From Phlyctochytrium arcticum (taxonomy: Eukaryota > Chytridiomycota > Chytridiomycetes > Chytridiales > Chytridiaceae), in assembly GCA_025602905.1 (NCBI GenBank), contig JAHLKI010000029.1, positions 186,001-250,000 on the forward strand: a DNA stretch of 64,000 nt, in the 5' to 3' direction. Position numbers and translations under genes: made by a program. The notes below the pieces were generated by a model. That model made no database searches. It was not told the DNA's origin and worked only from the letters and a program-made list of their open reading frames with translations. Of this stretch, positions 5,085-43,533 are shown piece by piece. Each line of letters starts with the position of its first letter. Within the stretch, counting starts at the first letter, position 1.

Positions 5085-5546
5085 ACGATCGCATCGTCGT
5101 TGTGAATTGTTTATTTGGGGCATGGGGCATTTGTGTACATTTATTGTTTTTCGACGCAAATTTATTATCAATATGACCTGTTGTTGAAGGAATTCTGGAT
5201 CTATCTCGATGAGTTTAAGGGATTAACATTAAGGGGAAAGCGATCTCGTCGTAGGGCATCGGGTCATTGCTGGCTTTGCGCCGAAGTGTCTGCTCTGGCG
5301 GAAGCTATCGCCATTTTATTTTGCAGACGTTTAACGAAGGCGGCCTAGAGTGATGAAAATGTATGGTAGTCCCATATGCCCAGTCCAATACAACAGCATA
5401 GAGTGATCGTGAGTTTAAACCAATTCCTGGGAATCAGATGGGGCCTAGGCAAGAAAATGTCTATCAAGAAGGGTACCCGTATTCGAATGATTGTGATTAA
5501 GAAATGTGTTGAAAAACACATAACATTTATCATCAACACAGAGGTC
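5085..5546. other. intergenic, RPL27 3' side
   Basis: RPL27 3' flank followed, from about 5480, by sequence resembling the 3' flank of the true BDP1 gene (compare 12715-12775; both have the AAATGTGTTGAAAAACACA stretch). No gene supported. Confidence 0.5.
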
Positions 5547-6060
5547 TCATTTTCCAATTCCAATGGTTGGGACAGCCCGCTTCCGATTAACGCGGGGTAG
5601 CGTTGCTGTCGGAGCACTTTCTGGGGTTGGTTCTGCTGTTGATGATGATGCTGTTGGTGCTGCCTCCGCCGGACCGCCGGGTTGGTTGATGGCGTGGATG
5701 GGGTTACTGGGGTTGCTGGGGTGGCCGGGTTTTTCTCCTTCGGCCCCCTTTCGGGACGATCACCGCTTTGGGTTTGATACCCTTGTTCATTGTGGATGAA
5801 GGCCGCGTGGGCAGTTAAGTGCTATATCGACACTTGTGGGAGCCCACATCTTCTCCGCTTGGTCCTCCTCTGTTTCTGGTGGGACCCAATTGGATGCCTC
5901 ATCCTGGGTATCCATGTCTTCTTCCATAGCATCTTCATCCGCCTTGGCCACATCCGGCCGCTTGTTGCGGGCCTGATCGGCCGCTTCGGCGTTCGCTATT
6001 CGCGGCTGCAGTGGTGCCGGCAACCACGGCAGCACACGCCACAATCGTAACGATTGTCTT
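5547..6060 (-). pseudogene. BDP1 C-terminal pseudogene fragment
   Basis: Diverged partial copy of the 3' end of the BDP1 gene at 12.8-15.2 kb, same strand. Matching segments: SNWVPPETEEDQAEKMWAPT here against STWIPPQTEEDEAERMWAPT in BDP1, and the identical C-terminus PTIGIGK followed by TGA (5549-5547). An alanine-rich stretch near 6000-6050 also aligns. The frame breaks just after VDIAL and the region between is not open in one frame, so it cannot encode the BDP1 C-terminus. Upstream on the minus strand (6050-6140) there is a plausible GTAAGT..CAG intron, but no SANT domain follows. It is interpreted as a truncated, decayed segmental duplicate. Confidence 0.85.
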
Positions 6061-6355: not shown

Positions 6356-6453
6356 CACTCAGCGTTTTCCTGTCAGCTACTTTGTGTTGGAAGGACAATC
6401 AATAGAACATACACCTGGAGATTGTGAAATGAAACAGCAAATTTACTTCCCCA
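6356..6453 (-). repeat. dispersed repeat, copy 1
   Basis: About 100 bp whose reverse complement closely matches 39204-39302. Shared landmarks are GTAAATTTGCTGTTTCATTT, CTATTGATTGTC and CAAAGTAGCTGACAGGAAAA. Weaker similarity continues to about 6510. It looks like the end of a transposon or a MITE relic; the family is not identified. Confidence 0.75.
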
Positions 6454-6794
6454 GAATCTTCTGCCGCTCCCCTTAGACCACATCCGAGTGACTGTGCCCC
6501 GACCCATAAGCGCCATTTTCCCACACCAGCCGCGGGGCATGTCATTCTCATATATATATACATCTCCTTCATGTATATGATCCGATTTTCACACAACAGA
6601 ATAAGTCGCAGCGCCTTTGTTCTGAAAAAAAGACCCACACAATCTGTACCATCAGCGCCGTGGTCAAAGGGGTGCGTATAGCGACTCAAAGAGGCTCGAG
6701 ATCGGAGACCGGAGTGTCATCACCCACGTGACCGGCGGTGAATTTGGCCGGGGATTTGGCCCGGAATTTGGCAGTTGCGCGACTGGCGGACCAG

Positions 6795-6862
6795 CTTAAG
6801 TCTAATTGTTAGGTCTGACTCATTTTTCCTTAAGTCTAACTGATAGGTCTGAGTCAGGTTTC
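6795..6862 (+). repeat. 34-bp tandem subterminal repeat
   Basis: Two copies of CTTAAGTCTAA(T/C)TG(T/A)TAGGTCTGA spaced 34 bp apart, about 180 bp upstream of the transposase ATG. Just before them (6748-6775) GATTTGGC/GAATTTGGC recurs three times, and the same GAATTTGGC is seen once beyond the other end of the gene (about 12353). Such clusters often serve as transposase-binding sites; that role is inferred. Confidence 0.6.
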
Positions 6863-7037
6863 GGACTTTTCGGACAAACAAACAGCTGAACAAACAGTGC
6901 CCAAATACAAATAAAAAGTAAAAATAAATCAGGCTGTACTGCTATGTACTGAACTGAACACCTTCTCCTTCCTGAGTTCATAGCCTATATCTGATTGCAT
7001 AACCTAGTGTCCAAATCTTGTCCGCGTAACTATAATC

Positions 7038-10000
7038 ATGACTGCCAAACGAGGCCGTCCCAAGGGCTCCAAGAACAAGTCCAATCATCGCGCAGGAAGA
7101 CCTTGGACAATCAGAAACCGAGGGGGTAGACGTGCCCAAACTTCCGAGCCTGAAACGAACGCTATTCTTCATGCCAGTGCTAGTAATCTAAACAATGAAA
7201 TGCAAGGGGGGAGCATGTCCGTCTCCAAAAGTGCGAATACATCATTATTTCCGATCTTTACAGCGCGTGGGAACGCGGCTGCTAAGCCTGCTGTACAAGA
7301 AGGAGCTGATGATACTAATCAAGGAGCTCATAATAGCAATGGTACAATATTGGAAAAAGACATCATCCAGACTGTCTCAAGCCAATGCACGGGTTCTCAT
7401 GTTTCCTTTCCATTCATAGAGCCTGCATCGCCAAGTAGCCCCTCACACAGAGCGCCTACTAGCCCCTCCCGCAGCGCCGAGCAAGAACCCGCAGCTCAGC
7501 CCTTCACGCAGTCGACTGATGAACAACCACAAGACCCAGAACAAATGCAACCGGCTACGGAAAGCTCTGCGGAGACTATCAAGCCTGCAGAATTGACTAC
7601 TGATGTTGTGGGGGAAATGTTGGACGGGGGTGCGCGGACCTTTCAGCCGGATATGATAGGTGAGCTCTCAAACTGATGGATTGTACCAGGCAGTGCTTAA
7701 CGCCTTCCCATCCATCTAGTAGATAGCCCTGAAGAGCCGGAGATACAAGAAGAAGAACTGGGGGATGATGAGACTACAGTGCCAGATAAGCGTGAGAATT
7801 GCCATTTGGCTTTTCTCACGTCTGTGAAAAAGAACTTGAATGACGAAATGGAGAAGCTGAACAAAAACGGAGGATCCTATCCTGACTTCATCACGCAACG
7901 CGATTGTTGGATCCGCCGTCCAGCAGTTCAAAACATCTTCCGGGGCCAGCATCATTTGGACCCTATGGAGCTGGCTTATCCAGATGTCTACATACATGTG
8001 CCGCACCTGTACGCCAACTTAAGATGTCATTGCGGCCACGAACTGACTACGAAGGGATGGAATGACGACTTTCGGAGAGTAGTGGATCTAGATCGAACGT
8101 GGTACCTGCTTTCGCGACGCTACCGCTGCGACAAGCGCGGGAAAAAGTCTGGATGTGGGAAGAGTTTCGTCGGGCATGCTCCATTCATTCTTGACCAATT
8201 GCCCGAAAGCTCGCGCATGTCCTTTCCAGCCGTCCTCACCCAACGAATGGGTATCTCGTCGCTGTTGATGAATCAGATGCGGCCCCTTTTCCACCACAGA
8301 ACAGGGCCGTCGCCTACAGCCAACCTCCTCCGAGAACTCCATACTAAGCAGTACGATATTCGACGGTTGGCCTATTTGGAAGAAGTTCGTCATCGAGTTA
8401 CCTACCCGCCGCCCTTTGACGCTCAGACAATCTTCCCCCCTTTCCCGGAGTTTGTTAAAGAGTATGAAGAGAAGCTTCCTCTTTCGAACTACCTGTTAGC
8501 TGTCTACAATACGGCGCAAAGGCGGTTCCAGAAACGACGTGATCAACAGATTGCTATGCTCCCAGCGGACATTCTTTCCAGCGATTTCAGTCACAAACTT
8601 CCGAAACGTGTTGCACGCGTTGACGGGTGCCCTGTGTATACGGCCGTCCACTCTTTTGGTAATCAATTTGGAGAGATCCGCGGGCACACGCTCACATTCA
8701 CGAAAAGCCTGAGGGAAATAGATCAGCCGATCAAAGGGATGTTGAATTCGTTGAAGCAGTTCGGTCATAAGCAACCACAACTCTTATTTGTTGACGACGT
8801 GCCGGGTAAAGTTCTTTGTGCTTCTCTTTCTGCCCATCATGCATTTTCTAATCGCTGGATTGATCAATAGGAGAACGAGGGTATTTCGAAAAGGCCATTC
8901 CATCCTTAACTCAAGATGTCAGGGCGACTATTATCGATGAATTTGCCAATCTTCCTGAGTTTTCACGTCCTCCAAACGTGGAGCAATTTCTGATCACTAC
9001 CTCGACTGCCTGCGATTTTATGCTCAATGTATGGGTCTTGCGAAACCTGAACGCCGGGGGTGAAGAGACAGGTGAAGAGACAGGTGAAGAGACAGGGGAC
9101 GAGACAGGTGCAGAAACAGGTGCAGAAACAGGTGCAGAAACAGGTGCAGAAACAGGTGCAGAGACGATCGCGGTTGGATTCGACTGCGAGTGGTCATATG
9201 ATCCCCGTACAGGTGTACAGGGTAAAGTCGCCACCATACAAATTGCGACCAGTGAAGTTGTCTTGATTGTTCACCTCTCTCGTATCGGAACGATCCCCTC
9301 AAGCATGAAGCGATTGATTGCGGAAGCGCGTGTTATCAAAGTAGGCAAAAATCTCGGTACTGACTTGGCAAAACTGGAAAGGGACTATGGCTTGCCTGTA
9401 AACCGTGGAACGTTGGAACTTGGTGCCTTTTGTAAACGTTTGAATGTAGTTTCGGATGGAAGGGTCGGCCTAGACGTACTTTGCGCAACGGTTCTGCGTC
9501 AAAGACTCCCCAAGCCAGATTCCATTCGAATAAGTGAGGATTGGGACAATGAGCAACTGTCCGAACAGCAACTAACGTACGCCGCGAACGACGCGTATGC
9601 CAGTCTAATGATCTATACCAACGTGGTGAATTTGCCCAACTTAAATGCGCAGCAGCTTCGTCCGGACCTAGCTGTTGATATTGTGGCCAAGGACAACAAG
9701 AAGATGGTCGTCGCAACTGGAATCGTGGGACCTGCCGATGTCACAAGATTACATGGAGTAAACCTAACCAAGACCCGCCAGGCTGTCGAGATCCATCAAA
9801 TTTTCGTTCCAGCTGCCTTCATACCCCAAAGTAAAGGTAAGCATGAGCCGTCTGCAATTAATGTTAGCGCGCGACATTCTATGGCGACCTTGACCTGCCA
9901 TCACGTATTGTTGTACCGACTACACAACTACGAGTCGCTGCGTCCCGCCCCATTGAGATCGTCCCTCCAACAAACATACCGGACCCGAGCGCTACCATGA

Positions 10001-12099
10001 CCGTGAATGCCGACAGCCAGCCGTCTTCTTTCGTTGAAGATAGCCTTGAAGATGCGTCAGCGGAAAATGTTTCGGAGATGACGAACTTGTCCGACCTACT
10101 TATGGGGGACGAGCAGTCGGAAACAGATGAGCACCACGATGAAGGCAATCCGTTGGAAGACGCCGTTCTTGACGCAACTATTCTAGAAGCTGCCACCCAG
10201 ATGCTGAGCGGGATGGAGACTGCTTCTGAACAATCCACACTCCCAACAAGAGTGCTCATGGATCCCTTCCATTTGATGAAAAGGATAGTCATTCCTAGAC
10301 GGCACGGAATTTTAACGAGATTCGTTCGAGCTTTGAGGGATGCAATGTTTGCGGTTGACGAAGATGACAAGCGTCATATGATAAGAGTTTATCTCGAACC
10401 ACGGAATCAAACGTGGGAACAGGTTCTGATCCAAAAACCTGCCTGGGTCTGGAAACGCGTCCGGCGGTACATTCCAAAGCCGGAAGTACTACTCCCACTA
10501 GTTAGGAAGGTTTTCTTGGCCTACGGTCCCATTCTCTGCGAAAAGCTGAAAAAGCCATTGTTCAACATGGAGGCATGGAAGAAGGCGAAGCTTGTCATCC
10601 GTGAAATCTTCCTTGGTCATGTCTCCGACCCCGTTGACGTACCACTATATTACAAAATGAAAATTGACAAGTTTCGTCTGACAAAGTATAGGTGCATCCG
10701 AGGGACGAACCTTTTGGAAGGCGGGGTTCATCAGAAAATGATTGCACGGTTCTCCGCATATCGGGCAAGTGTGCCATTTACGCATAGCCTAATGGCAGAA
10801 TACGTTTGTAGACACAATCAGAATGTAAGTCTCTCATTGGGGGGTCCACCTCTACCAATCTCTTTACCACACTAAACGCGACGCTTTCAGGTGGGAACTT
10901 TGAACAGATCGGGCAAGCCATGGAAGTGGCACTACGACCTGTGGCTGATTGATTCGATACATTCTCTTTACCTGGAGTTGGAACATGTTCTGAAATCGCC
11001 CTTGCCACCACTTCTTGACAATTGGTGTAATCCAAACTACTACAAGCCAAGTCAAGAAACCTTCCTCATTTGTCCGCTAGGAACAGAGATGGCTGAAGTT
11101 CACCAGATAGAACCTTTCCGTGAGCCAGAGTCAAACTCTTTCCGTCGATCTGAAGTGGCCCGCCTGCAAAACTCTCGTTTCGCAATTATTCCCATTAGCA
11201 CTAGAGAGGAAAAGAGGCGGTTCCTTGAATTCCTCAAGGAACGGGAGTGGGCAGAAATTCTCTCCCGACGTGCGTTGGCTAAAACTGGATTCTCGACCGC
11301 TCAGTGGACGAAAATGAGCACCCAATGGAACCGAGAGGCAAATGGAGTAACAATCTTTTATAAGATCGGTGTGCATTTGGAAGCCCACTTCAAAAACTGG
11401 GTGCAGTACCGGATTGAAGCGGCCACTGCATTGTCCAGCGCGGAGCAGCGGGAAGAAGTGGATCGGCTTTTGCGAGACCCCAACCGAACCATCCGCAACT
11501 TACCCACCGCAAACGTTTCTGACCTACCGCTCATTAACATTCCCGCAGATCCGACGCGTCTCCCCCTACCAATCCCCGCTCCCCAACTAATGCCCGACCC
11601 CGAACCAATGCCCGACCCCGAACCAACTCACGATCCCGAACCAACTCCTGATCCCGATCCAACTCCCGACCCCGAACCAACTCCCGACCTTCCCGACACT
11701 CAATCAACAGCTCCAACTGCTATCACCTCTTCCCAAGCAATCTCCGCTCCACAATCGACGGATAGTCTCCATTTGATGATCGCTCCGCAAATAACGCCCG
11801 CTACTCAGACGCCCAGACCTATCAATGCTATTCCTCCCATCTTACCGACCAATGCCCCCTTGGATGCGACAATGGACGAGTCATCAAAGCCCCGAGCAAA
11901 AAGGCAGAGGAGATTATGTCGTATCTGCAACGGAATATGTCCAGGTAGTGGCAATCGTGCTTTGTGTACAGGGGTTGGACCGGACACTGTTACTGTGGGT
12001 GCTTCGGGGCGATTGACGAAATCAAAGATCCGCAACTGTCGTAGCTGCCAGTCCGCAACATGTCCTGGGCGGTGGAAAGTGGAAAAGTGTGAAGGATGA
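7038..12099 (+). CDS. transposase with embedded DEDDy exonuclease
   Basis: Large five-exon gene (7038-7659, 7720-8805, 8871-9836, 9868-10824, 10891-12099; about 1613 codons). In order: AT-hook GRPKGSKNK at residue 6; low-complexity Ser/Pro/Glu region; zinc-ribbon-like CHCGHEL...CGKSF (8029-8170); RNase H-like core with first Asp in VDGCP (8622) and second in FVDDVPGER (8793-8798); (GEET)n linker; complete DEDDy exonuclease with FDCEW (9179), KVGKNLGTDLAKL (9338) and YAANDAYAS (9578); DPFHLMKRI (10261); catalytic-Glu motif RGTNLLEGGVHQ (10717); Pro/Asp-rich tail; zinc knuckles (11927-12090). The exonuclease therefore sits inside the transposase core. The exon 3/4 junction does not keep frame with consensus sites, so this copy may carry a frameshift. 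Transposase role is inferred from motifs; the exonuclease family is WRN-like. Confidence 0.8.
9060..9168 (+). repeat. 12-bp coding minisatellite
   Basis: Nine tandem 12-bp units encode Gly-(Glu/Asp/Ala)-Glu-Thr repeats, early units GGTGAAGAGACA, later GGTGCAGAAACA. They form an acidic linker directly before the exonuclease domain and are likely copy-number variable. Confidence 0.95.
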
Positions 12100-12396
12100 C
12101 GACTCGTGGATAACGGATTTATACATTACTATTAGCAACCATCAAGTCGTCATATAAAGACGCATTTTTTCCTTCAAATATCATTTATTACATTATAGAT
12201 TTCTTGACTTGATACACTCATGCATATTTATTGGCGCATTGACGCTCAGATTGACGCTCGCTTGCGCTCGCGCCAATATATCCTGTTCGAATTAATTAAT
12301 TCCGCTGACGCGGAATTAATTGTTTCTTGGTCCGGGAGTGAAATATAAGCCGAATTTGGCCTTTGGTACGGCAACTCTGGAGGCGAACCGTTGAGC
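12100..12396. other. 3' flank of transposase gene
   Basis: AT-rich 3' flank with the GC-stem hairpin at 12294-12321 and a GAATTTGGC motif near 12353. The element end is probably within or just after this stretch, but I could not find an inverted repeat matching the 6.1-7.0 kb side. Confidence 0.4.
12294..12321. repeat. perfect 12-bp hairpin
   Basis: Arms AATTAATTCCGC and GCGGAATTAATT separated by TGAC. It lies about 200 bp after the transposase stop and could mark the element end or act in transcript 3' processing. Confidence 0.85.
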
Positions 12397-12510
12397 AGAC
12401 ATTGCGAGAAGGCCAAAAAGCCTTGATGGAATAGGAACGCCTCTGGACATGGTCGAGATTACGCTTTCGCCTGTGGGTAAGTCCAAGTGCAAAATCTGAA
12501 GAGTCCTTAG
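12397..12510 (+). pseudogene. BDP1 5' fragment (promoter, exon 1, intron 1)
   Basis: Plus-strand copy of the BDP1 5' end, inverted relative to the functional gene next to it. Shared elements in order: GACATT, GCGAGAAGG, CCTTGATGG, ATGGTCGAG (12449; true gene 15245), ACGCTTTCG, and the donor GTGGGTAAGTCCAAGTGCAAA. Similarity fades inside intron 1. From here to 12770 I see no gene, only BDP1 3' flank from about 12700. Confidence 0.8.
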
Positions 12511-12770
12511 GCTAGTAAGTGTCTATCAAATGAGCTATTCGAATCGATGTGTGTTGCGAAATCGGGTCCTTTTGTAGTTGGCTACACGTAATGAGAGCCT
12601 TTACCATTTCCCTCATGTATGAGCTCCGAAATCTTTCTCCCTCTTCTGTAATCTTAACTCGTATACATCAGTATATCGAGCGAAATCTTTTAGTTCTCAA
12701 GAATGTGTAAGAATGATTATCATTACGAAATGTGTTGAAAAACACAAAACATTTTTAACACACAAATATC

Positions 12771-15245
12771 TCACTTCCCAATTCCGATGGTAGGGATCTC
12801 CCGCTTCCGGTTGATGCGGGTTGAGGTTGCTACGGGAACGCTTTCCGCAGCCATCGCTGTTTGTATGGCTGGTGCCGCCTCCAAGTTGGTTGAGGACGTG
12901 GATGGGGTTGCCGGCACTCTCCTCCTTCGGCCCCCTTTCGGCAGAATGCCCGCCTTGGGTTTGATACCTTTCTTTATTATGGACAAAGGCCGTAGGGGAA
13001 GCTCAAATGCGATGTCGACGTTTGTAGGAGCCCACATCCTTTCCGCTTCATCTTCCTCAGTTTGTGGTGGTATCCAGGTAGATGACTCGTCTTGGTCCAT
13101 GTTATCTTCCTCCTCCACCACATCCGACCGCCTACTGCCAGCCGCATTGGTCACCTCGCCGTTTGCAGCCGCAGTGGCGCCACCAACCACGGCAGCAGCG
13201 TCGTCCTTTGTTATGACGGCCTCCTCCTCTCCGCCGCTGCCATCCGCGGCCGCATCGCGCTTAGCAACACGATCCTTGACCCGCTCCTTCATATCCGCAA
13301 TAAGATCGCTCGCTGAGAGTGCTATTAGTACGCCGACGGGAATGATGAACTGATGTATCCTGAACTTACGGGCAGATTTCTTTGCAAGTAATGTGGAGGT
13401 AACCCTTGCGGCATTCACACGCTCCTCAACATTATATTTTGCCTTCAATTGCGCTCGCGTCAAACCGGGAAACATCAAACAAATCATACTAAAATCCGTT
13501 CCAAAGTAAGACAATCCCTGAAACCCAAATGATTCAATTAGATACATTTTTCAATGGGATAGATAAGGATCAGAGACGTACATCGTAGAATCGCTCGGTC
13601 CATTCAGCTGTCCATTTGACCCGTGCGCGTTGCTTTCTCATTCTGAACGATGCACTTGTGACAAGCCTTTGAGCACCCTCGTCAATTTGCTCGAGATCTT
13701 CATCTCCATTGTTTTGGTGTATCACCAGTGAATTCGTGTCCAGCTGCATTTGCCCATCAATCATGACCAAACGTGGTCCGGAAAAACTATGAAATAAATG
13801 TTTGTTAATACCCTTCTTGGTCGGGGCGGCAAGTAAATCTTACTTTTGAGTCCCTGACATATCCTGAACCTCTTCTGATGGAGCAGGGGAAGGACTGCAC
13901 CTTGACATGGCACTACTCTCCCGTTTGCTCCGCTTGTTTTCTTCCTGCTGTTGCAAACGCAACTGCTCCATTCGGGACAGTTTGCCTTTTGTGAATTTAT
14001 GGAAGATGAGCTCGGCAATCGTAAATTGCGGGATAGTTTCTTCATTGAGTTCGAGGGGTGGCTCTTCGTCATCATCATCTGGGGGAGTGCTTGCGGCTCT
14101 GAGTTCGCCGTGTTTACGCTTGGCTCCCCTTGCTGTCGTTGGAACCTGGATCTCAAGCGCTGATTTTTGTAGGGTGATATTTGCGGTGTCGGCTGGGGGG
14201 TGACTGGAAAGAACCGTTGGTGGAGCGTTTTTGGAGAAGATCTGTGAAACAAAGCATATAAGATATTTGCTGAACTTGGTGAAAAACAACAACAATGTCC
14301 TACTCTTGGTGGACCAGCAGCACGGGTTGGGACCTGAGTCTGAAGGATTTGAGGTGTATAATCGTGGTCGTTATTTGAATCAACAAATTCATCAAAACCG
14401 CCGGATACGGCGGATATTGCGGCAGCCTAAAAACATGATTTAAGAACGGTTCGCTGGGTGTGCTCTCAAATAAACGCATTGTGCGGGGATGCCATCAACT
14501 CGTACCTTTGCGGGTTGTGGATCAGGCGCGGACAGCTGTGCAGATGACGGAGTGGAAGATGGTAATTCGGGTGCTGCTGCTTGATTTCGCGGAACCACCT
14601 TTGGTCCTAGTGGTTTCCTGATTATTGGACCGACAGGATGTAGTGGATTCGCCGTAACAGGTTTTGTAACCTGAGACAGTACGAGACCAGTAGATGCCAG
14701 ATCTACATTGTTGGTAGCCGGTACACGAGTTGGTGGTGCACTGAGTGTTGAAGCTTGCGTGGCATTAGCTGAACTTATACTTGCGGCCAAGGAACTTGTC
14801 GCGGCTCCAGGATGTCCTGTTAGAGCATTTGTTGTGGAGTGGGGCTGGCTTGATATAGGTCCGAGCTGAGATACTGCAGGACTTAAAATAGCTTTCGATA
14901 GGTCATTTGATGTGTCTACAGAACCCGTCGGAGTAGTTTGCGTTGCGGGGGGTGTAAGGACCGGAAGGCCTGCGTGTTGGGTTGGATTTTGTTGTGATAA
15001 AGGATCCTGAGTTGCTGGCGGAGTATTGCTGTGTCCTTCCGTGGTAGGTACATTTGGCACCGGCGCTGTTGGAGGAGCACTCGTGGTTGGGCCTGCTGCT
15101 TTTGCTCTATTCCCTCTGGGCCGAGCTTTTGGGGCGGGGGCAAATTTACTGGCTCGAGCTGTTTGGGAAAATAGTCAGTACGCGAAAGAGACCTTCAGAC
15201 TTTGCACTTGGACTTACCCACAGACGAAAGCGTTAGCTCGACCAT
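12771..15245 (-). CDS. BDP1: TFIIIB subunit B'' (Bdp1)
   Basis: RNA polymerase III initiation factor TFIIIB component, nuclear, binds TBP-Brf1-DNA. Exons: 15245-15218, 15158-14506, 14426-14304, 14241-13844, 13786-13582, 13517-13370, 13312-12771 (698 aa). The diagnostic part is the SANT domain: WTAEWTERFYD, then GLSYFGTDFSMICLMFPG and TRAQLKAKYNVEER, split by a 64-nt intron. The preceding EETIPQFTIAELIFHKFTKG is also typical. The N-terminal third is Pro/Ala/Ser-rich and low complexity, as in other Bdp1 proteins. The start ATG lies in a nine-codon first exon. Parts of this gene recur at 5547-6060, 12397-12510 and 38732-38898, so its neighbourhood has been rearranged. Confidence 0.93.
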
Positions 15246-16137
15246 ATCTTCAGGTGCTCCTTCCCATCAAGGTTGTATTTGTGCTTCTTGTCCTTCTCGC
15301 TAATATAATGTCTGGTCAATGCTGGGGCAATTCAACGGTGCCCGGACTGTCAAAATGACAAATGGTTGGATTGGACTCATTGGAGGTTCGGGACAATGCA
15401 TAAAGTGTGGCTGCAACCGCGCTGGAACCAGAATTCGCGTTTCGCTTGATTTGCGCGCCAGACGTCACTGTACGGCACAGGATCTCTGCGTTGCCGAAAA
15501 GGCCCACCGCAAAACGACGGACGGGAAAAGACGGCGGAAGTCGTTGTGCACAACCCTGGACATTTCTCGCCAACTTTTCCTCGAAGAGCTATAGCCGACG
15601 ACCATTTACCAAGTGCTCCGGAAGCGCTATTCCTACTACCACCGGCTTCTCCACACCAGCACCAAAAAGTCCTGGTCGGCTGCCTCAGGGCTGCTCGTTG
15701 ATCGACGTAAGCAACCTTTTGCCCTTTTCGCTTTTGTTCCTGTCCTCAGACCTTTTTTCTGTTGAGCCAGCTGCCACGGCTTCCCCAACAACGGCGAGCA
15801 TCACAAGTACCGCCAGTGTTAATCTCGCTGCGAATTGCGCGGGGTCGGTTTTTCTTCCGGAACGTCTGGAGCGCGGCGACGTTCTTTTTTGGACTGGGCT
15901 TACTTTCGAGAATCGAGATAGCACATATAGTGTGGACAACGAAGCGCCCCACGCGCCATATTCAAAAACTGGGAGAGACTGACTGGAAAAACGGGTGTCT
16001 ACGAGAAAAATACCATCGTCGAAACATAGTCTAAAACACGCTGCCGATAATTCGAGCTTGTGACATTCCTCAAGGAAAAAGTTGCAACATCTGCGACAAC
16101 TACTCACTTATATTTGCTATTTGTGTACTCTTTCACA
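15246..16137. other. divergent spacer BDP1 / ceramide synthase
   Basis: About 890 bp between divergent starts. ORFs exist on both strands (15407-15982 plus, 191 aa; 15685-16107 minus, 140 aa with one hydrophobic stretch) but neither resembles a known protein and they overlap antisense. A short gene may hide here; I cannot support one. Confidence 0.4.
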
Positions 16138-20800: not shown

Positions 20801-21009
20801 ACGGCGATGGGGTGATGGTGGTGGGAGACGAGTTAAGTTATTGTCTCTGAAAGTTCTCAATTATTTCGTGTCTTGGACTGCTTTGACCCTTCGGTGTCTC
20901 CGAGTGTCTCTTTGATGTGTCTCAGAGTCTGACAACACAACGTCTAAATTATACCTTTCCCAACATTATGACCTTTGAAAACACAAAGGTTCTGTATAGC
21001 GAGCAAAAA

Positions 21010-22686
21010 ATGGCTACGGATGGAAACGAGGACGGAGTATCGAGCAGCACAACTACAGTGTCAAACACAATGAACACCGGTCTCGTAGGTCGAGCGGGGG
21101 GTGCATATATCCCGCCGGCTCGCCTACGGGCAATGCAGGCCGCATTCACGGACAAGTCAAGTGTCGAATACCAGCGCATCACTTGGGAGGCCCTCAAGAA
21201 GAGTATCAACGGTTTGATCAACAAAGTCAATACTGCGAATATCAAGAACATTGTGGTGGAGCTGTTTGGTCAGATCGGTGAACTACTGCTGACAAGGTTG
21301 ATTGTGCAGTTTCGCAAGGCATATAAGCGTAGTGACAAACAAGTGTGCCTATCATCATCCAAGTTCCTCGCTCATCTGGTCAATCAAAAGGTAGCCCACG
21401 AGATTGTCGCTCTACAGCTTCTGACCCTTTTGACGGAACGGCCCACGGACGATTCAGTAGAGGTGGCGGTTGGATTGATGCGAGAATGCGGTGCATATCT
21501 CTCGGATCCTCGCGTGTCTTTGCGTGCCGCCAATGGTGTTTTTGATCGTTTCCGAGCGATTTTGCACGAAGGAACCATCGACAAAAGAACGCAATACATG
21601 GTAGAGGTGCTCTTTCAAGTTCGCAAGGAGAAGTTCAAGGATAATCCACCGTACCCGGAGGAGCTAGATCTTGTGGATGAAGACGATCAATTAACTCATA
21701 TGGTCACATTGGATGACGAGTCCCTTGAAACATCCGAAGGATTGAATGTATTCAAAGCGGACCCCAGCTACTTGGAAGATGAAGAGCAGTATACCCAAAT
21801 GAAGATGGAGATCTTGGGCGAAGATTCGAGCGATGAAGATGGTAGTGAAGCCAGTAGTGATTCAGATGAAGACAACGATGAGGGGGAGGGGCAAAATACT
21901 GTAGAGGCAGCACAAAAGCGGCTGGAAATCCAAGACGAGACAAATACGAATCTGATCAATCTCAGGCGTGCCATTTATCTTACCATCATGTCAAGTCTGA
22001 ACTTTGAAGAGTGCGCACACAAGCTGATGAAACTCCATATTCAACCGGGACAAGAAATGGAGCTGGTCAACATGGTCATCGAATGTTGTGGGCAAGAACG
22101 AACATATGTGAACTTCTATGGGCTGCTGGGGGAACGTTTTTGCCAATTGAACAAGAACTGGGCCGACGCATTTTGCCAAGCATTTGAGGAAACTTACAAA
22201 ACAGTGCATCGGTTCGAAACAAATCGCCTGCGAAATATTGGCAAATTCTTTGCGCATCTCTTGGCGTCGGATGCTCTCACTTGGGAGGTCTTCTCGTTGA
22301 TTCGCCTGACGGAAGCCGACACTACCTCTTCGTCCCGTATTTTCATCAAAATCATATTCCAGGATCTGTGCGAAGCCTTTGGCCTGAAAACCTTGCGACA
22401 AAGACTCCTCGATCCAAACATGATTGTGCAGGTCCAGACTCCAAGTGGGGTCGTCACTCGCGGGGCATTCGACTGTTTGTTTCCAAAAGACAACCCGCGT
22501 AATACACGGTTTGCGATCAACTACTTCACCAGTATCAACTTGGGTGGACTCACGGAGGAACTACGAGACTATTTGAAGAATGCCCCCAAACTAATAATGG
22601 CCCAGCAGCAGCAGGATGACTTAGATTCATCATCTGAATCCTCATCTGATGACTCTTCATCGTCTGACTCTTCATCATCTGACTAG
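21010..22686 (+). CDS. CWC22: CWC22 copy A, internally deleted
   Basis: Intronless 558-residue paralogue of the splicing factor Cwc22, which binds the spliceosome and, in animals, delivers eIF4A3 for exon-junction complexes. Nearly identical to copy B at 25024, including the start context. It has the MIF4G region ([38 protein letters not shown]) and the MA3 region ([37 protein letters not shown]). Compared with copy B it lacks 40 residues inside MIF4G, an exact 120-bp in-frame deletion after ELFG (at about 21270). It also stops after a Ser/Asp tract, with no Arg/Ser tail. The deletion removes helices of the MIF4G fold, so function is doubtful although the frame is open. The ORF extends in frame to 20917, but 21010 matches the copy B start. 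Confidence 0.85.
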
Positions 22687-23813: not shown

Positions 23814-25023
23814 CAGCCTTCCTGGGTTAAGGCTTCTAAATGTCCTGGGTTGAGTGGTGCCGGTTGAAAAATTGAGGTGAATGCAGTAAAATTGGAGCCC
23901 AAGTACGTTTATTCATCCATAGTTCGCACCGTGGGAATGTCGCCAAGGTTGCGAATTTTGGACAAGATCAACTGCACAAATCCCAGCTGTGGGGTGTGCG
24001 GAATACTGTTCCTGCACGCTATGGCCAGCGTAAATCAAGCTGGCGTGCCACAGCCTCGGTTTGCTACAATACAATGTTAGAACTAATATTGCACATAAAT
24101 GTATAGTGAATGCTGCATATCAGGCATACCCTTTGCAGAGAGGAAACAATGGCGTAGGTCCAATTTCCGAAAAGACCGGTCGGGAAACCATGTTTCTTCG
24201 AAAGAATGCATAGAAAGCGATTGATAAGGGAGACTCCGAGGAGGACCATAAACTCTTCACTGACAGTGTTAAAACGGGTCTTGACATCATCTCGCTTGGA
24301 AATACATGTGTATCCCATGTATAAAATCTGAACAGCAAACTTATGGTGTTCCGCTGCTCTGCTCAGATATTCTTTGACTATACTGGATATAAACAAATCA
24401 GTGCGGGAAAACGGAGAGCGTCAGTGAGGCTTGGGAACTTCCAGCTGTTCTCCCACAGACTCCCGGACGAGACAAAAGAAACTTACGATGCTTTAGGCAC
24501 ACATTGGCTGTCCTTGCCTATCCTTTTAAGAGCCCAAAATTAGATTCTTGCGATCATAACGAGCCCACCCAAAATCTACGCCTTGGCGGATCAATTGGCG
24601 CTGGACGTCTTTGATTACGCTTCCATTTAGGTTGATGGGCATGCGAGTGACCCATTGATATATGCGACATGGAACTTTCAGGCATCCAATGAAGACGCGA
24701 CGCGACGACTGAAATTCACTGAATAGGGTGATCAGGTTTTCGCTTAAGACTGTCTTCTAACTTTTGACAGGACTGCTCCGGCAAGCTGGTCTTGAGTTGA
24801 TGCTGGAGGATTTTGTAGCGGCCATCGTTAGACAGGGGCATTGCTTCCACGTTGACGTTGGGTGATCTCCAGATGTATCTGAGAATGCCTCTGGTCGAGG
24901 AGAGTTGCTGCGCAGGTCCGGCTTGGCGGATCACGTGAAAAGTTGGGACCCAGAAGACGAGAGCTGGCGAGAGCTCCAGGAGAGCTCGACAGGAGAGCAC
25001 AAAGCTTCTGTAACGAACAAACA
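23814..25023. other. region with unassigned minus-strand coding-like segments
   Basis: Minus-strand segments look protein-like but do not join into one clean gene: 24845-24716 (SNDGRYKILQHQLKTSLPEQ), 24740-24540 in another frame (SSRRVFIGCLKVPCRIYQWV), and after an acceptor near 24382 a segment with HHKFAVQILYMGYTCISKRD and LLGVSLINRFLCILSKKHGF. This may be an intron-rich gene divergent from CWC22 copy B, starting near 24845, or a decayed one. I do not recognise the family. Confidence 0.35.
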
Positions 25024-27030
25024 ATGGCTACGGATGGAAACGAGAATGGAGTATCGAGCAGCACAAGTACACCGTCAAACACAATGACCACTGGTCTCGT
25101 AGGTCGAGCGGGGGGTGCCTATATCCCGCCGGCTCGCCTACGGGCAATGCAGGCCGCGATCACGGATAAGTCAAGTGTCGAATACCAGCGGATCACTTGG
25201 GAGGCCCTCAAAAAGAGTATCAACGGTTTGATCAACAAAGTCAATACTGCCAATATCAAGAACATTGTGGTGGAGCTGTTTGGGGAGAATTTGGTCCGAG
25301 GTCGAGGACTGCTGTGTCGGAGTATCATGAAGGCTCAGGCCGCTTCCCTGCCCTTTACCCCAGTCTATGCGGCACTCGTTGCCGTCATCAACACAAAGTT
25401 TCCTCAGATCGGTGAACTACTGCTGACAAGGTTGATTGTCCAGTTTCGCAAGGCATATAAGCGTAGTGACAAACAAGTGTGCCTATCATCATCCAAGTTC
25501 CTCGCTCATCTGGTCAACCAAAAGGTAGCCCACGAGATTGTCGCTCTACAGCTTTTGACCCTGTTGACGGAACGGCCCACGGACGATTCAGTAGAGGTGG
25601 CGGTTGGATTGATGCGAGAATGTGGTGCATATCTCTCGGACCCGCGCGTGTCGTTGCGTGCCGCCAATGGCGTTTTTGATCGTTTCCGAGCGATTTTGCA
25701 CGAAGGGACCATCGACAAAAGAACGCAATACATGGTAGAGGTGCTCTTTCAAGTTCGCAAGGAAAAGTTCAAGGACAATCCACCGTACCCGGAGGAGCTA
25801 GATCTTGTGGATGAAGACGATCAATTAACTCATATGGTCACATTGGATGACGAGTCGCTTGAAACTTGCGAAGGGTTGAATGTATTCAAAACAGACTCTA
25901 GCTACCTGGAAAATGAAGAGCAATATACCCAAATGAAGAAGGAGATCTTGGGCGAAGATTCGAGCGATGAAGATGGTAGTGAAGCCAGTAGTGATTCAGA
26001 TGAAGACAACGATGAGGGGGAGGGGCAAAATACTGTAGAGGCAGCACAAAAGCGGCTGGAAATCCAAGACGAGACAAATACGAATCTGATCAATCTCAGG
26101 CGTGCCATTTATCTTACCATCATGTCAAGTCTGAACTTTGAAGAGTGCGCACACAAGCTGATGAAACTCCATATTCAACCGGGACAAGAAATGGAGCTGG
26201 TCAACATGGTCATCGAATGTTGTGGGCAAGAACGAACATATGTGAACTTCTATGGGCTGCTGGGGGAACGTTTTTGCCAATTGAACAAGAACTGGGCCGA
26301 CGCATTTTGCCAAGCATTTGAGGAAACTTACAAAACAGTGCATCGGTTCGAAACAAATCGCCTGCGAAATATTGGCAAATTCTTTGCGCATCTCTTGGCG
26401 TCGGATGCTCTCACTTGGGAGGTCTTCTCGTTGATTCGCCTGACGGAAGCCGACACTACCTCTTCTTCCCGTATTTTCATCAAAATCATATTCCAGGATT
26501 TGTGTGAAGCCTTTGGCCTGAAAACCCTGCGACAAAGACTCCTCGATCCAAACATGATTGTGCAGGTCCAAACGCCAAGTGGGGTCGTTACCCGCGGTGC
26601 ATTTGACGGCCTCTTTCCAAAAGACAACCCGCGTAATACACGGTTTGCGATCAACTACTTCACCAGTATCAATTTGGGTGGACTCACCGAGGAGTTGCGA
26701 GAATATCTGAAGAACGCCCCGAAGCTCATCATGGCTCAGCAGCAGGAAGTCGATTCAGATTCATCATCATCTGACTCGTCATCTTCGGATGACTCGAGCA
26801 GCGACAGCGAGTCCAGCTCGTCGGACTCAGGGTCTGACGTCTCCCCCCGCCGCGATCGACGACGCAGCCCTCCAAGAAGGCGCTCCCCGGAGCCCTCACC
26901 AGTGGCCAAACGGCAACGCCGTGACTCGCGTGACTCGCGAGATGGCCGAGATCGGCGCGACTCTCGCGACGACCGCGTCCATCCGGACCGGCGTAGACTG
27001 CAGGATGAGCGGGACCATCGTAGAAGATAG
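25024..27030 (+). CDS. CWC22: pre-mRNA splicing factor CWC22, copy B (intact)
   Basis: Intronless 668-residue Cwc22 with complete domain set: MIF4G domain (about residues 20-290, including [20 protein letters not shown] which copy A lacks), an acidic Ser/Asp/Glu linker ([20 protein letters not shown]), the MA3 domain (about 350-560, [40 protein letters not shown]), and a Ser/Asp tract leading into an Arg/Ser/Asp-rich tail ([35 protein letters not shown]). Acts in the spliceosome. The open frame reaches upstream to 24943, but the ATG at 25024 aligns with copy A and sits in a good context, so it is preferred. This is probably the functional gene and copy A the derivative. Confidence 0.93.
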
Positions 27031-38731: not shown

Positions 38732-38898
38732 GGACATTCCACCATGAGCGGAGAAGGCCAAAAAGCACCAATACAACCTTGATGGAAAACGAGTGCCTGT
38801 AGGATGGTCGACCTAACGCTTACGTCTGTGGGTAGGTCCAAGTGCAAAGTCTGAATTGAAGGTTCCTTCGCGCACTCACTACTTTGCAACAGCTCGAG
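38732..38898 (+). pseudogene. BDP1 5' fragment interrupted by MULE
   Basis: Second detached copy of the BDP1 5' end: GACATT, GAGAAGGCCAAAAAGCACCA, ATACAACCTTGATGG, ATGGTCGAC (38804), GTGGGTAGGTCCAAGTGCAA, then intron 1 and the acceptor CAG followed by CTCGAG of exon 2. Similarity resumes on the far side of the MULE with CTCGAGCCAGTAAATTTGC (43414-43432), identical to BDP1 exon 2 start, then stops. It lies divergent to the DCAF11 gene. Confidence 0.88.
38890..38898 (+). repeat. 9-bp target-site duplication, left
   Basis: CAGCTCGAG, repeated at 43411-43419 on the other side of the element. It equals the intron 1/exon 2 junction of the BDP1 fragment. Confidence 0.88.
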
Positions 38899-38910
38899 GA
38901 GGGTGTAGAT

Positions 38911-38947
38911 AACCGGTACAGGTACAGGTTGGTACAGGTACAGGTAT
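38911..38947 (+). repeat. MULE inverted repeat, left
   Basis: 37 bp beginning AACCGGTACAGGTACAGG and ending GGTACAGGTAT, perfect inverted match to 43359-43395. It is built of a repeated GGTACA hexamer. Confidence 0.93.
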
Positions 38948-39203
38948 AGTCGCGCGGCGGTACTGACATGGCTGTGCCACTTGCAGTTGTCCCGGACTGT
39001 ACCTGCACCTCTGTATAGTCCAGTACTGCTGAAAATACCCATCGACTGCAGATGGGCACCCTCTCTGTACGAGTGGACCCCGATGCTTTAGGACATTGGA
39101 AAGATTTTCCCTCCTTTGCTAGTTCTGTATTATTTTATACTGTCCCGCACACACCTACATGTACAGTCATACTCGGCTCAGAGGGGATCCTCCTCTTTAC
39201 ACG

Positions 39204-39302
39204 GTATAAAGTAAATTTGCTGTTTCATTTCACAGTCTCCAGTTATATTTTCTATTGATTGTCGTTCTCACGCAAAGTAGCTGACAGGAAAACGCTGAGT
39301 GG
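39204..39302 (+). repeat. dispersed repeat, copy 2
   Basis: About 100 bp closely matching the reverse complement of 6356-6453. Located inside the MULE boundaries, so it is a nested insertion or captured fragment. Both copies end at the same CGCTGAGTG. Confidence 0.75.
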
Positions 39303-43159: not shown

Positions 43160-43358
43160 GTTGCGTTCTTTGCGTACTCGAAGTTTGTTATAGCCGATCT
43201 GCGGTTTGGATTTGGCAAGATCTGGGGAATACCACAATAATCAGCAGCCGGTATACGAACTGGGAAGGGGGTGGCACAGCCAGGTAGAGTGGCGCGGTGT
43301 GGCAATAGGTACAGGTACAGTCGTTTCCTCCGTGACTGTACCTGTGAGGCTTATAACG

Positions 43359-43395
43359 ATACCTGTACCTGTACCAACCTGTACCTGTACCGGTT
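43359..43395 (-). repeat. MULE inverted repeat, right
   Basis: Inverted partner of 38911-38947, identical over 37 bp. It is followed by TATATATATATTCCAG and the target duplication at 43411-43419. Confidence 0.93.
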
Positions 43396-43533
43396 ATATA
43401 TATATTCCAGCAGCTCGAGCCAGTAAATTTGCGAGTCCGGGGGACTGTGCCACCCTGTGTGGTAAATTGATGTCCCAAAAGCTCACTTGAGAGTTGTTCA
43501 ATAGAGGAAGCCTCGTCGGGTCTGAAGGGGGCA

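Follow-up and report, generated by a model that had tools for sequence, protein, structure and literature searches.

Does a transposase-like gene in a chytrid genome encode one nuclease inside another, and does it belong to an element that moves? The question is raised by positions 7038–12099 of a 64,000-nucleotide (nt) stretch of Phlyctochytrium arcticum DNA (assembly GCA_025602905.1, contig JAHLKI010000029.1, positions 186,001 to 250,000 of the forward strand; hereafter the window), in which a first-pass annotation had read a DDE transposase core with a complete DEDDy exonuclease nested in it. We find that the gene lies within a well-delimited, recently mobile DNA transposon, and that the residues of both active sites are conserved in distant relatives. 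The element is very probably a Dada-type DNA transposon, autonomous in type and moving by cut-and-paste, from a lineage that bears a DEDDy exonuclease.

Borders, copies and mobility of the element

A 401-bp DNA query detected seven loci in the 31.5-Mb, 91-contig genome: the window copy (C29, the window being C29:186001–250000) and six others, labelled C11, C44, C8, C80, C3 and C55. Four of them (C29, C11, C44 and C8) have both ends, with borders matching window positions 6770 and 12351 and with unrelated flanks. Pairwise, these four differ by substitutions at only 0.29–0.61% over ~5.6 kb, which argues for recent movement. The two ends (Table 1) are complementary at 14 of 24 positions and share the 7-bp CGGACCA at equal offset, together with GGC/GCC tips; the element carries short terminal and sub-terminal inverted repeats. 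For random end pairs drawn from the window, 8 of 20000 reached at least 14/24, and 16 of 20000 held a run of at least 7 at equal offset. C8 is flanked by an anchored, clean 8-bp target-site duplication, AGGAATTT. Shared ends, near-identical copies and this duplication identify 6770–12351 as a mobile transposon and not as two fused genes. The genome-wide look for full-length relatives and terminal repeats that the first-pass annotation had proposed thus yielded four copies with both ends and short inverted repeats.

The remaining three loci match window positions 7787–11244 only and lie inside larger duplicated blocks; their coding matches contain stops. Identity is 99.8% over 11.5 kb between C80 and C3 and 99.5% over 10 kb between C80 and C55. 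Because the shared sequence exceeds the gene, these three spread by duplication of larger blocks, as expected if an exonuclease-bearing host gene family had been multiplied by segmental duplication and not by transposition. We give almost no credence to this explanation, which is already contradicted by the shared borders in different flanks: the other four copies have exact common ends, C8 has its 8-bp duplication, and C11 and C44 are frameshifted, unlike a host gene that is needed.

Comparison of the copies also bears on the gene model. In the region of intron 3, C11, C44 and C8 all have 29 bp that are missing from the window copy, and these 29 bp include CTTTTAG, the likely acceptor of an intron of 64 nt, for which the frame was tested in C8. 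With a 64-nt intron 3, C8 encodes 1,642 amino acids (aa) with no internal stop, using a GC donor at intron 4. Since the 29 bp with the likely acceptor have been lost, the exon 3/4 junction of the window copy is uncertain, and this copy must use a different acceptor or be impaired; the modelled 98-nt intron 3 keeps its frame open, the exon 4 start being part of that model.

C8 further contains a 5.1-kb insertion downstream of the stop codon and before the right end, perhaps another mobile element. Elsewhere in the genome, C1, C5 and C27 each have a related right end and C31 has a related left end; coding relatives that are more distant are found at C3:1338114, C61, C4, C83, C24, C2, C7 and C27, among others.

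A complete exonuclease between the second Asp and DxxH

After splicing of four introns (63, 65 and 66 nt for introns 1, 2 and 4, respectively), the gene reads as a single frame that encodes 1,589 aa and ends in a stop, in which all motifs of the first-pass annotation are present in the order it had given. The left boundary of exon 2 could be placed at 7720 or 7723, and we chose the latter. Pfam assigns two families, DUF6729 (PF20499; aa 306–470, E 6.6e-17) and the 3′-5′ exonuclease PF01612 (aa 665–819, E 6.1e-17); no third family was detected in the 1,589-aa protein at E ≤ 1. A profile of 22 relatives searched against the PDB matched a WRN exonuclease chain best (2e6l, E 1e-39). The two C-terminal Cys clusters span C1530–C1587 and contain no His, so that the knuckle is all-Cys.

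Nesting of the exonuclease in the DDE core holds in part. The domain follows the second Asp (aa 565) and precedes the Glu (aa 1152), as had been read; it ends before DxxH (aa 1000), which itself stands ~150 residues from the Glu. In DDE transposases the usual insertion domain is placed after the fifth strand, and the exonuclease would therefore be an additional insertion, before DxxH. Nested RNase H folds would follow from the conserved motifs.

Table 1 Features of the element and its gene (window coordinates)
Feature	Position	Strand	Details
DNA transposon, whole	6770..12351	+	5,582 bp; alignment borders common to C29, C11 and C44; ends also in C8
Left end	6770..6793	+	GGCAGTTGCGCGACTGGCGGACCA; GGC tip; CGGACCA at offset 18–24
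Right end	12328..12351	+	TGGTCCGGGAGTGAAATATAAGCC; reads GGCTTATATTTCACTCCCGGACCA inward from the right
Possible 6-bp target-site duplication, left	6764..6769	+	GAATTT; may be a minisatellite unit (6740–6772)
Possible 6-bp target-site duplication, right	12352..12357	+	GAATTT
Exon 1	7038..7659	+	AT-hook RGRPKGSKNK at 7050–7079 (aa 5–14)
Exon 2	7723..8805	+	DUF6729 zinc domain, catalytic Asp1 and Asp2
DUF6729 zinc domain	8016–8510	+	Cys codons 8025, 8031, 8127, 8154 (C309, C311, C343, C352)
Asp1 D495; Asp2 D565	8583–8585; 8793–8795	+	Exon 2; from the alignment of relatives
Exon 3	8871..9836	+	(GEET/GAET)n linker 9059–9165, then DEDDy exonuclease
DEDDy 3′-5′ exonuclease PF01612	9158..9622	+	aa 665–819; D673, E675, D733, Y805, D809
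Intron 3 region as modelled	9837..9934	+	98 nt
Exon 4	9935..10824	+	DxxH DPFH 10261–10272 (aa 1000–1003); Glu E1152 in RGTNLLEGG 10717–10719
Exon 5	10891..12099	+	C-terminal part, two Cys clusters (Cys codons 11917–12090), stop

Both active sites are conserved in distant relatives

Relatives of the protein come from mushrooms, Mucoromycota, diatoms and metagenomes. The best, a Mycena protein with 31% identity, extends over 98% of the 1,101 residues used as query, a match far above chance. At E ≤ 0.001 there are 22 relatives, 14 of which have both domains in precomputed annotation, and a rescan at E ≤ 5 finds each domain in 20 of the 22. Two separate genes joined only by reading, the case that the first-pass annotation had named against itself, are ruled out: relatives, including the Mycena protein over the extent given above, hold the whole order in one protein.

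For residue counts we aligned 65 of 141 collected proteins, picked by length and coverage (76 omitted). Asp is present at both D1 and D2 in 65/65, and the catalytic Glu in 60/65 (4 gaps, 1 Lys), so that the DDE triad is kept in 60; at DxxH, the Asp is found in 63/65 and the His in 65/65. All five exonuclease residues are kept in 59/65. The residue first proposed as the initial catalytic Asp, D508 in VDGCP, proved to be the wrong one: in the alignment of the 22 relatives its column holds Asp in 2/22 and is ruled out, whereas the column of D495, in SSDFSHK, holds Asp in 21/22 (one gap). With this correction, the reading of a DDE-type transposase that contains a complete DEDDy exonuclease, in a mobile element, is upheld by the conservation of both residue sets. 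The N-terminal region is shared more loosely: an AT-hook RGRP occurs in 32 of 64 relatives of at least 1,300 aa (within the first 150 residues in 29 of those), and CxxC...CxxC is seen in many relatives at the position of the four Cys. One metagenome relative (P0015) also has an Ulp1 protease domain (PF02902).

The exonuclease might nevertheless be a passenger or a structural insertion that has no catalytic use, an idea compatible with a Dada transposon. In six of the 65 relatives an exonuclease residue is changed or gapped, and the relative P0009 looks degenerate at several of these positions. Against this, 59 keep all five residues despite a mean p-distance of 0.61 for the domain (64 of the 65 sequences), which points to selection on exonuclease activity, and we consider the passenger explanation very improbable.

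Exonuclease and outer-core distances correlate closely (r 0.91 for 64 of the 65 aligned sequences; 0/999 permutations as high). Trees of the two parts, built without a cellular exonuclease outgroup or exonuclease-free Dada, give the same groups as named by the analyst: one of 10, two of them named diatoms (support 1.0 and 0.94), one of five, three of them named Mucoromycota (0.97 and 0.96), and one of three unnamed sequences (1.0 and 1.0). Congruent distances and the three shared groups fit a descent in which the exonuclease would have travelled with the transposase since before these groups split more readily than they fit repeated capture.

Comparison with Dada and other transposons

The first-pass annotation knew of no transposon class with this arrangement; one was described in 2013, for Dada (Kojima and Jurka; PMC3706591). 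According to that paper, Dada elements encode a DDE transposase with DxxH, an N-terminal CCCC and a C-terminal CCHC motif, have introns, measure 4,666–10,979 bp and make 6–7 bp duplications, and Dada-U6 and Dada-U1 carry sub-terminal inverted repeats instead of long terminal ones. In Dada from Laccaria bicolor and Ectocarpus siliculosus, a DEDDy exonuclease with conserved DEDD residues lies between the second Asp and DxxH, and processing of cleaved 3′ ends is proposed for it; section 5 of the paper names the exonuclease for these elements only and not for animal or Perkinsus Dada.

The element described here agrees with Dada-1_LB, Dada-2_LB and Dada-1_ES in the order of DDE and DxxH, in the type, conserved DEDD residues and insertion point of the exonuclease, and in its N-terminal four-Cys motif, introns, length within 4.7–11 kb, short duplication and sub-terminal inverted repeat. 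DDE and DxxH are likewise shared with animal and Perkinsus Dada, which target U6, U1 and tRNA genes and whose 6–7 bp duplications are not always formed (PMC3706591, PMC8869645). Differences are the GGC/GCC tips, which amount to a short terminal inverted repeat in addition, and the spacing of the four N-terminal Cys (C389, C394, C429 and C432 in Dada-U6_DR). For Agaricus bisporus, 15 Dada families are reported (PMC7473861), and Agaricus bisporus proteins are present among the matches listed in our searches. No match was named Dada in three protein searches (in two of them among the best 120 of 132 and the best 120 of 149 matches). With exonuclease-deleted relatives as query, 104 of the best 120 of 149 matches were already known, and no animal name occurred among the matches listed.

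Two other groups were compared and rejected on architecture and duplication. KolobokD (PMC9587614) is also a DDE lineage with a DEDD-family exonuclease; its exonuclease is DEDDh and not DEDDy, and the duplications of Kolobok are TTAA, whereas no TTAA was found at the junctions of our four copies. KDZ (Kyakuja-Dileera-Zisupton) elements are also mushroom transposons, with 7–8 bp duplications; they differ in that PMC12730594, which treats them, nowhere uses the word exonuclease. A whole-word search of the open-licence literature found no work treating Dada, Basidiomycota and exonuclease together, although four papers in it name Dada transposons or use similar phrases; DUF6729 is unmentioned in that literature.

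Several observations weigh against the assignment to Dada. Membership rests on architecture, and the likeness to the Repbase Dada elements is one of description and not of letter-by-letter alignment. The C-terminal knuckles are all-Cys, as opposed to CCHC in Dada (PMC3706591). Animal and Perkinsus Dada target small RNA genes, and none was found at the sites here: Rfam at gathering score gave 0 matches in the 64-kb window and 0 in 48.5 kb around C44, C11, C8 and C1, a small RNA gene search of ~200 bp at either flank in the window gave 0 at E ≤ 1, and ARAGORN, which may miss split or intron-bearing genes, found 0 tRNAs in the window. Anchored duplications occur in two of the four copies, and the 6-bp GAATTT of C29 is ambiguous because a small GAATTTGGCC minisatellite served as target there; C11 and C44 show no anchored duplication of at least 4 bp at their junctions. 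For the outer core, a profile of five exonuclease-deleted relatives matched no PDB chain at E ≤ 10. Its only matches to RNase H-like families fell below threshold, namely ZSWIM1-3_RNaseH-like in P0017 (E 0.012; residues 536–612, from just past D1 through D2) and MULE in one of 22 relatives (E 0.14); the PF21056 and MULE matches, being below the cut-off, are not relied on.

Some of these observations would suit a separate DDE superfamily whose WRN-like exonuclease was captured independently and came to resemble that of Dada in position by convergence: the likeness by description, the all-Cys knuckle, and the absence of a small-RNA-gene target in the Rfam scans of the window and the 48.5 kb around copies. 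Exonuclease captures do recur, since Kolobok, too, has acquired nucleases, a DEDDh exonuclease among them (PMC9587614). We judge such an origin to be quite improbable, as insertion point, exonuclease type and N-terminal four-Cys motif all match Dada, fungi are a reported host group, and the C8 duplication and the 7-bp sub-terminal inverted repeat are near those reported for Dada. The copies without duplication, C11 and C44, fit a remark in PMC8869645 that Dada may sometimes leave none, and PMC3706591 states insertion into small RNA genes for those Dada whose termini can be defined, while giving no target for the fungal families.

Insertion sites

Two of the four copies, C29 and C8, have the common target GGAATTTG, which is not seen at C11 or C44 or to the right of the related ends at C1, C5 and C27. 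At C44, AGTAATACA stands on both sides, 15 nt off the left end; 22 of 5000 random 40-mer pairs share a 9-mer. The right flank of C11 begins with a hairpin of perfect 8-bp stem, the score of which is equalled by 0.22% of 8000 random positions. Eight flanks were tested and the other seven score ≤6, giving a corrected, post hoc figure of ~0.02 for C11, which is only suggestive. Fold-back sequences adjoin the right end of C11 and the left end of C44, the two copies without an anchored duplication.

A broader idea, which we regard as unlikely, is that the exonuclease-bearing fungal Dada lineage no longer targets small RNA genes and inserts elsewhere instead (at GGAATTTG in two of four cases), and that the nested exonuclease shapes the junctions, so that end trimming and repair would give variable duplications and, in duplication-less copies, fold-back flanks.

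Proposed mechanism

The most likely mode of transposition would be cut-and-paste by the outer DDE core with 3′-end trimming by the inner exonuclease. DNA binding would fall to the AT-hook and the DUF6729 zinc domain. The DDE site would consist of D495, D565 and E1152, cleave the transposon at its ends and link these to the target with a 6–8 bp duplication; we infer this chemistry because the triad is conserved and the copies are mobile. The exonuclease, whose DEDDy site is intact, would trim 3′ ends that excision exposes or that lie at the vacated donor site.

Other repeats in the window

Direct repeats of 68% identity flank the transposon at 5485–6034 and 12711–13197; by eye from the open reading frames, they are apparently parts of two related minus-strand genes. 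Outside the element's left end, 6356–6448 forms a 93-bp inverted repeat of 91% identity with 39209–39301. A direct repeat of ~1.7 kb (93–95% identity) lies at 20982–22655 and 24998–26795, and short dispersed repeats in several orientations, perhaps small non-autonomous elements, at 12391–12501, 15153–15319, 38751–38950 and 43356–43400.

Implications

The idea of nested nucleases is right in outline, yet it has been in print since 2013. Added here are a well-bounded element with near-identical copies, evidence that both active sites are conserved in fungi and diatoms alike, and a sign of joint descent of exonuclease and transposase. Two nucleases of the RNase H superfamily in one polypeptide, one to cut and join and the other to trim, would be a compact test of transposon end processing. 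The results further suggest that Pfam DUF6729 belongs to transposases of this kind, and that many proteins of mushrooms that go by the name '3′-5′ exonuclease' are parts of them and not host DNA-repair enzymes.

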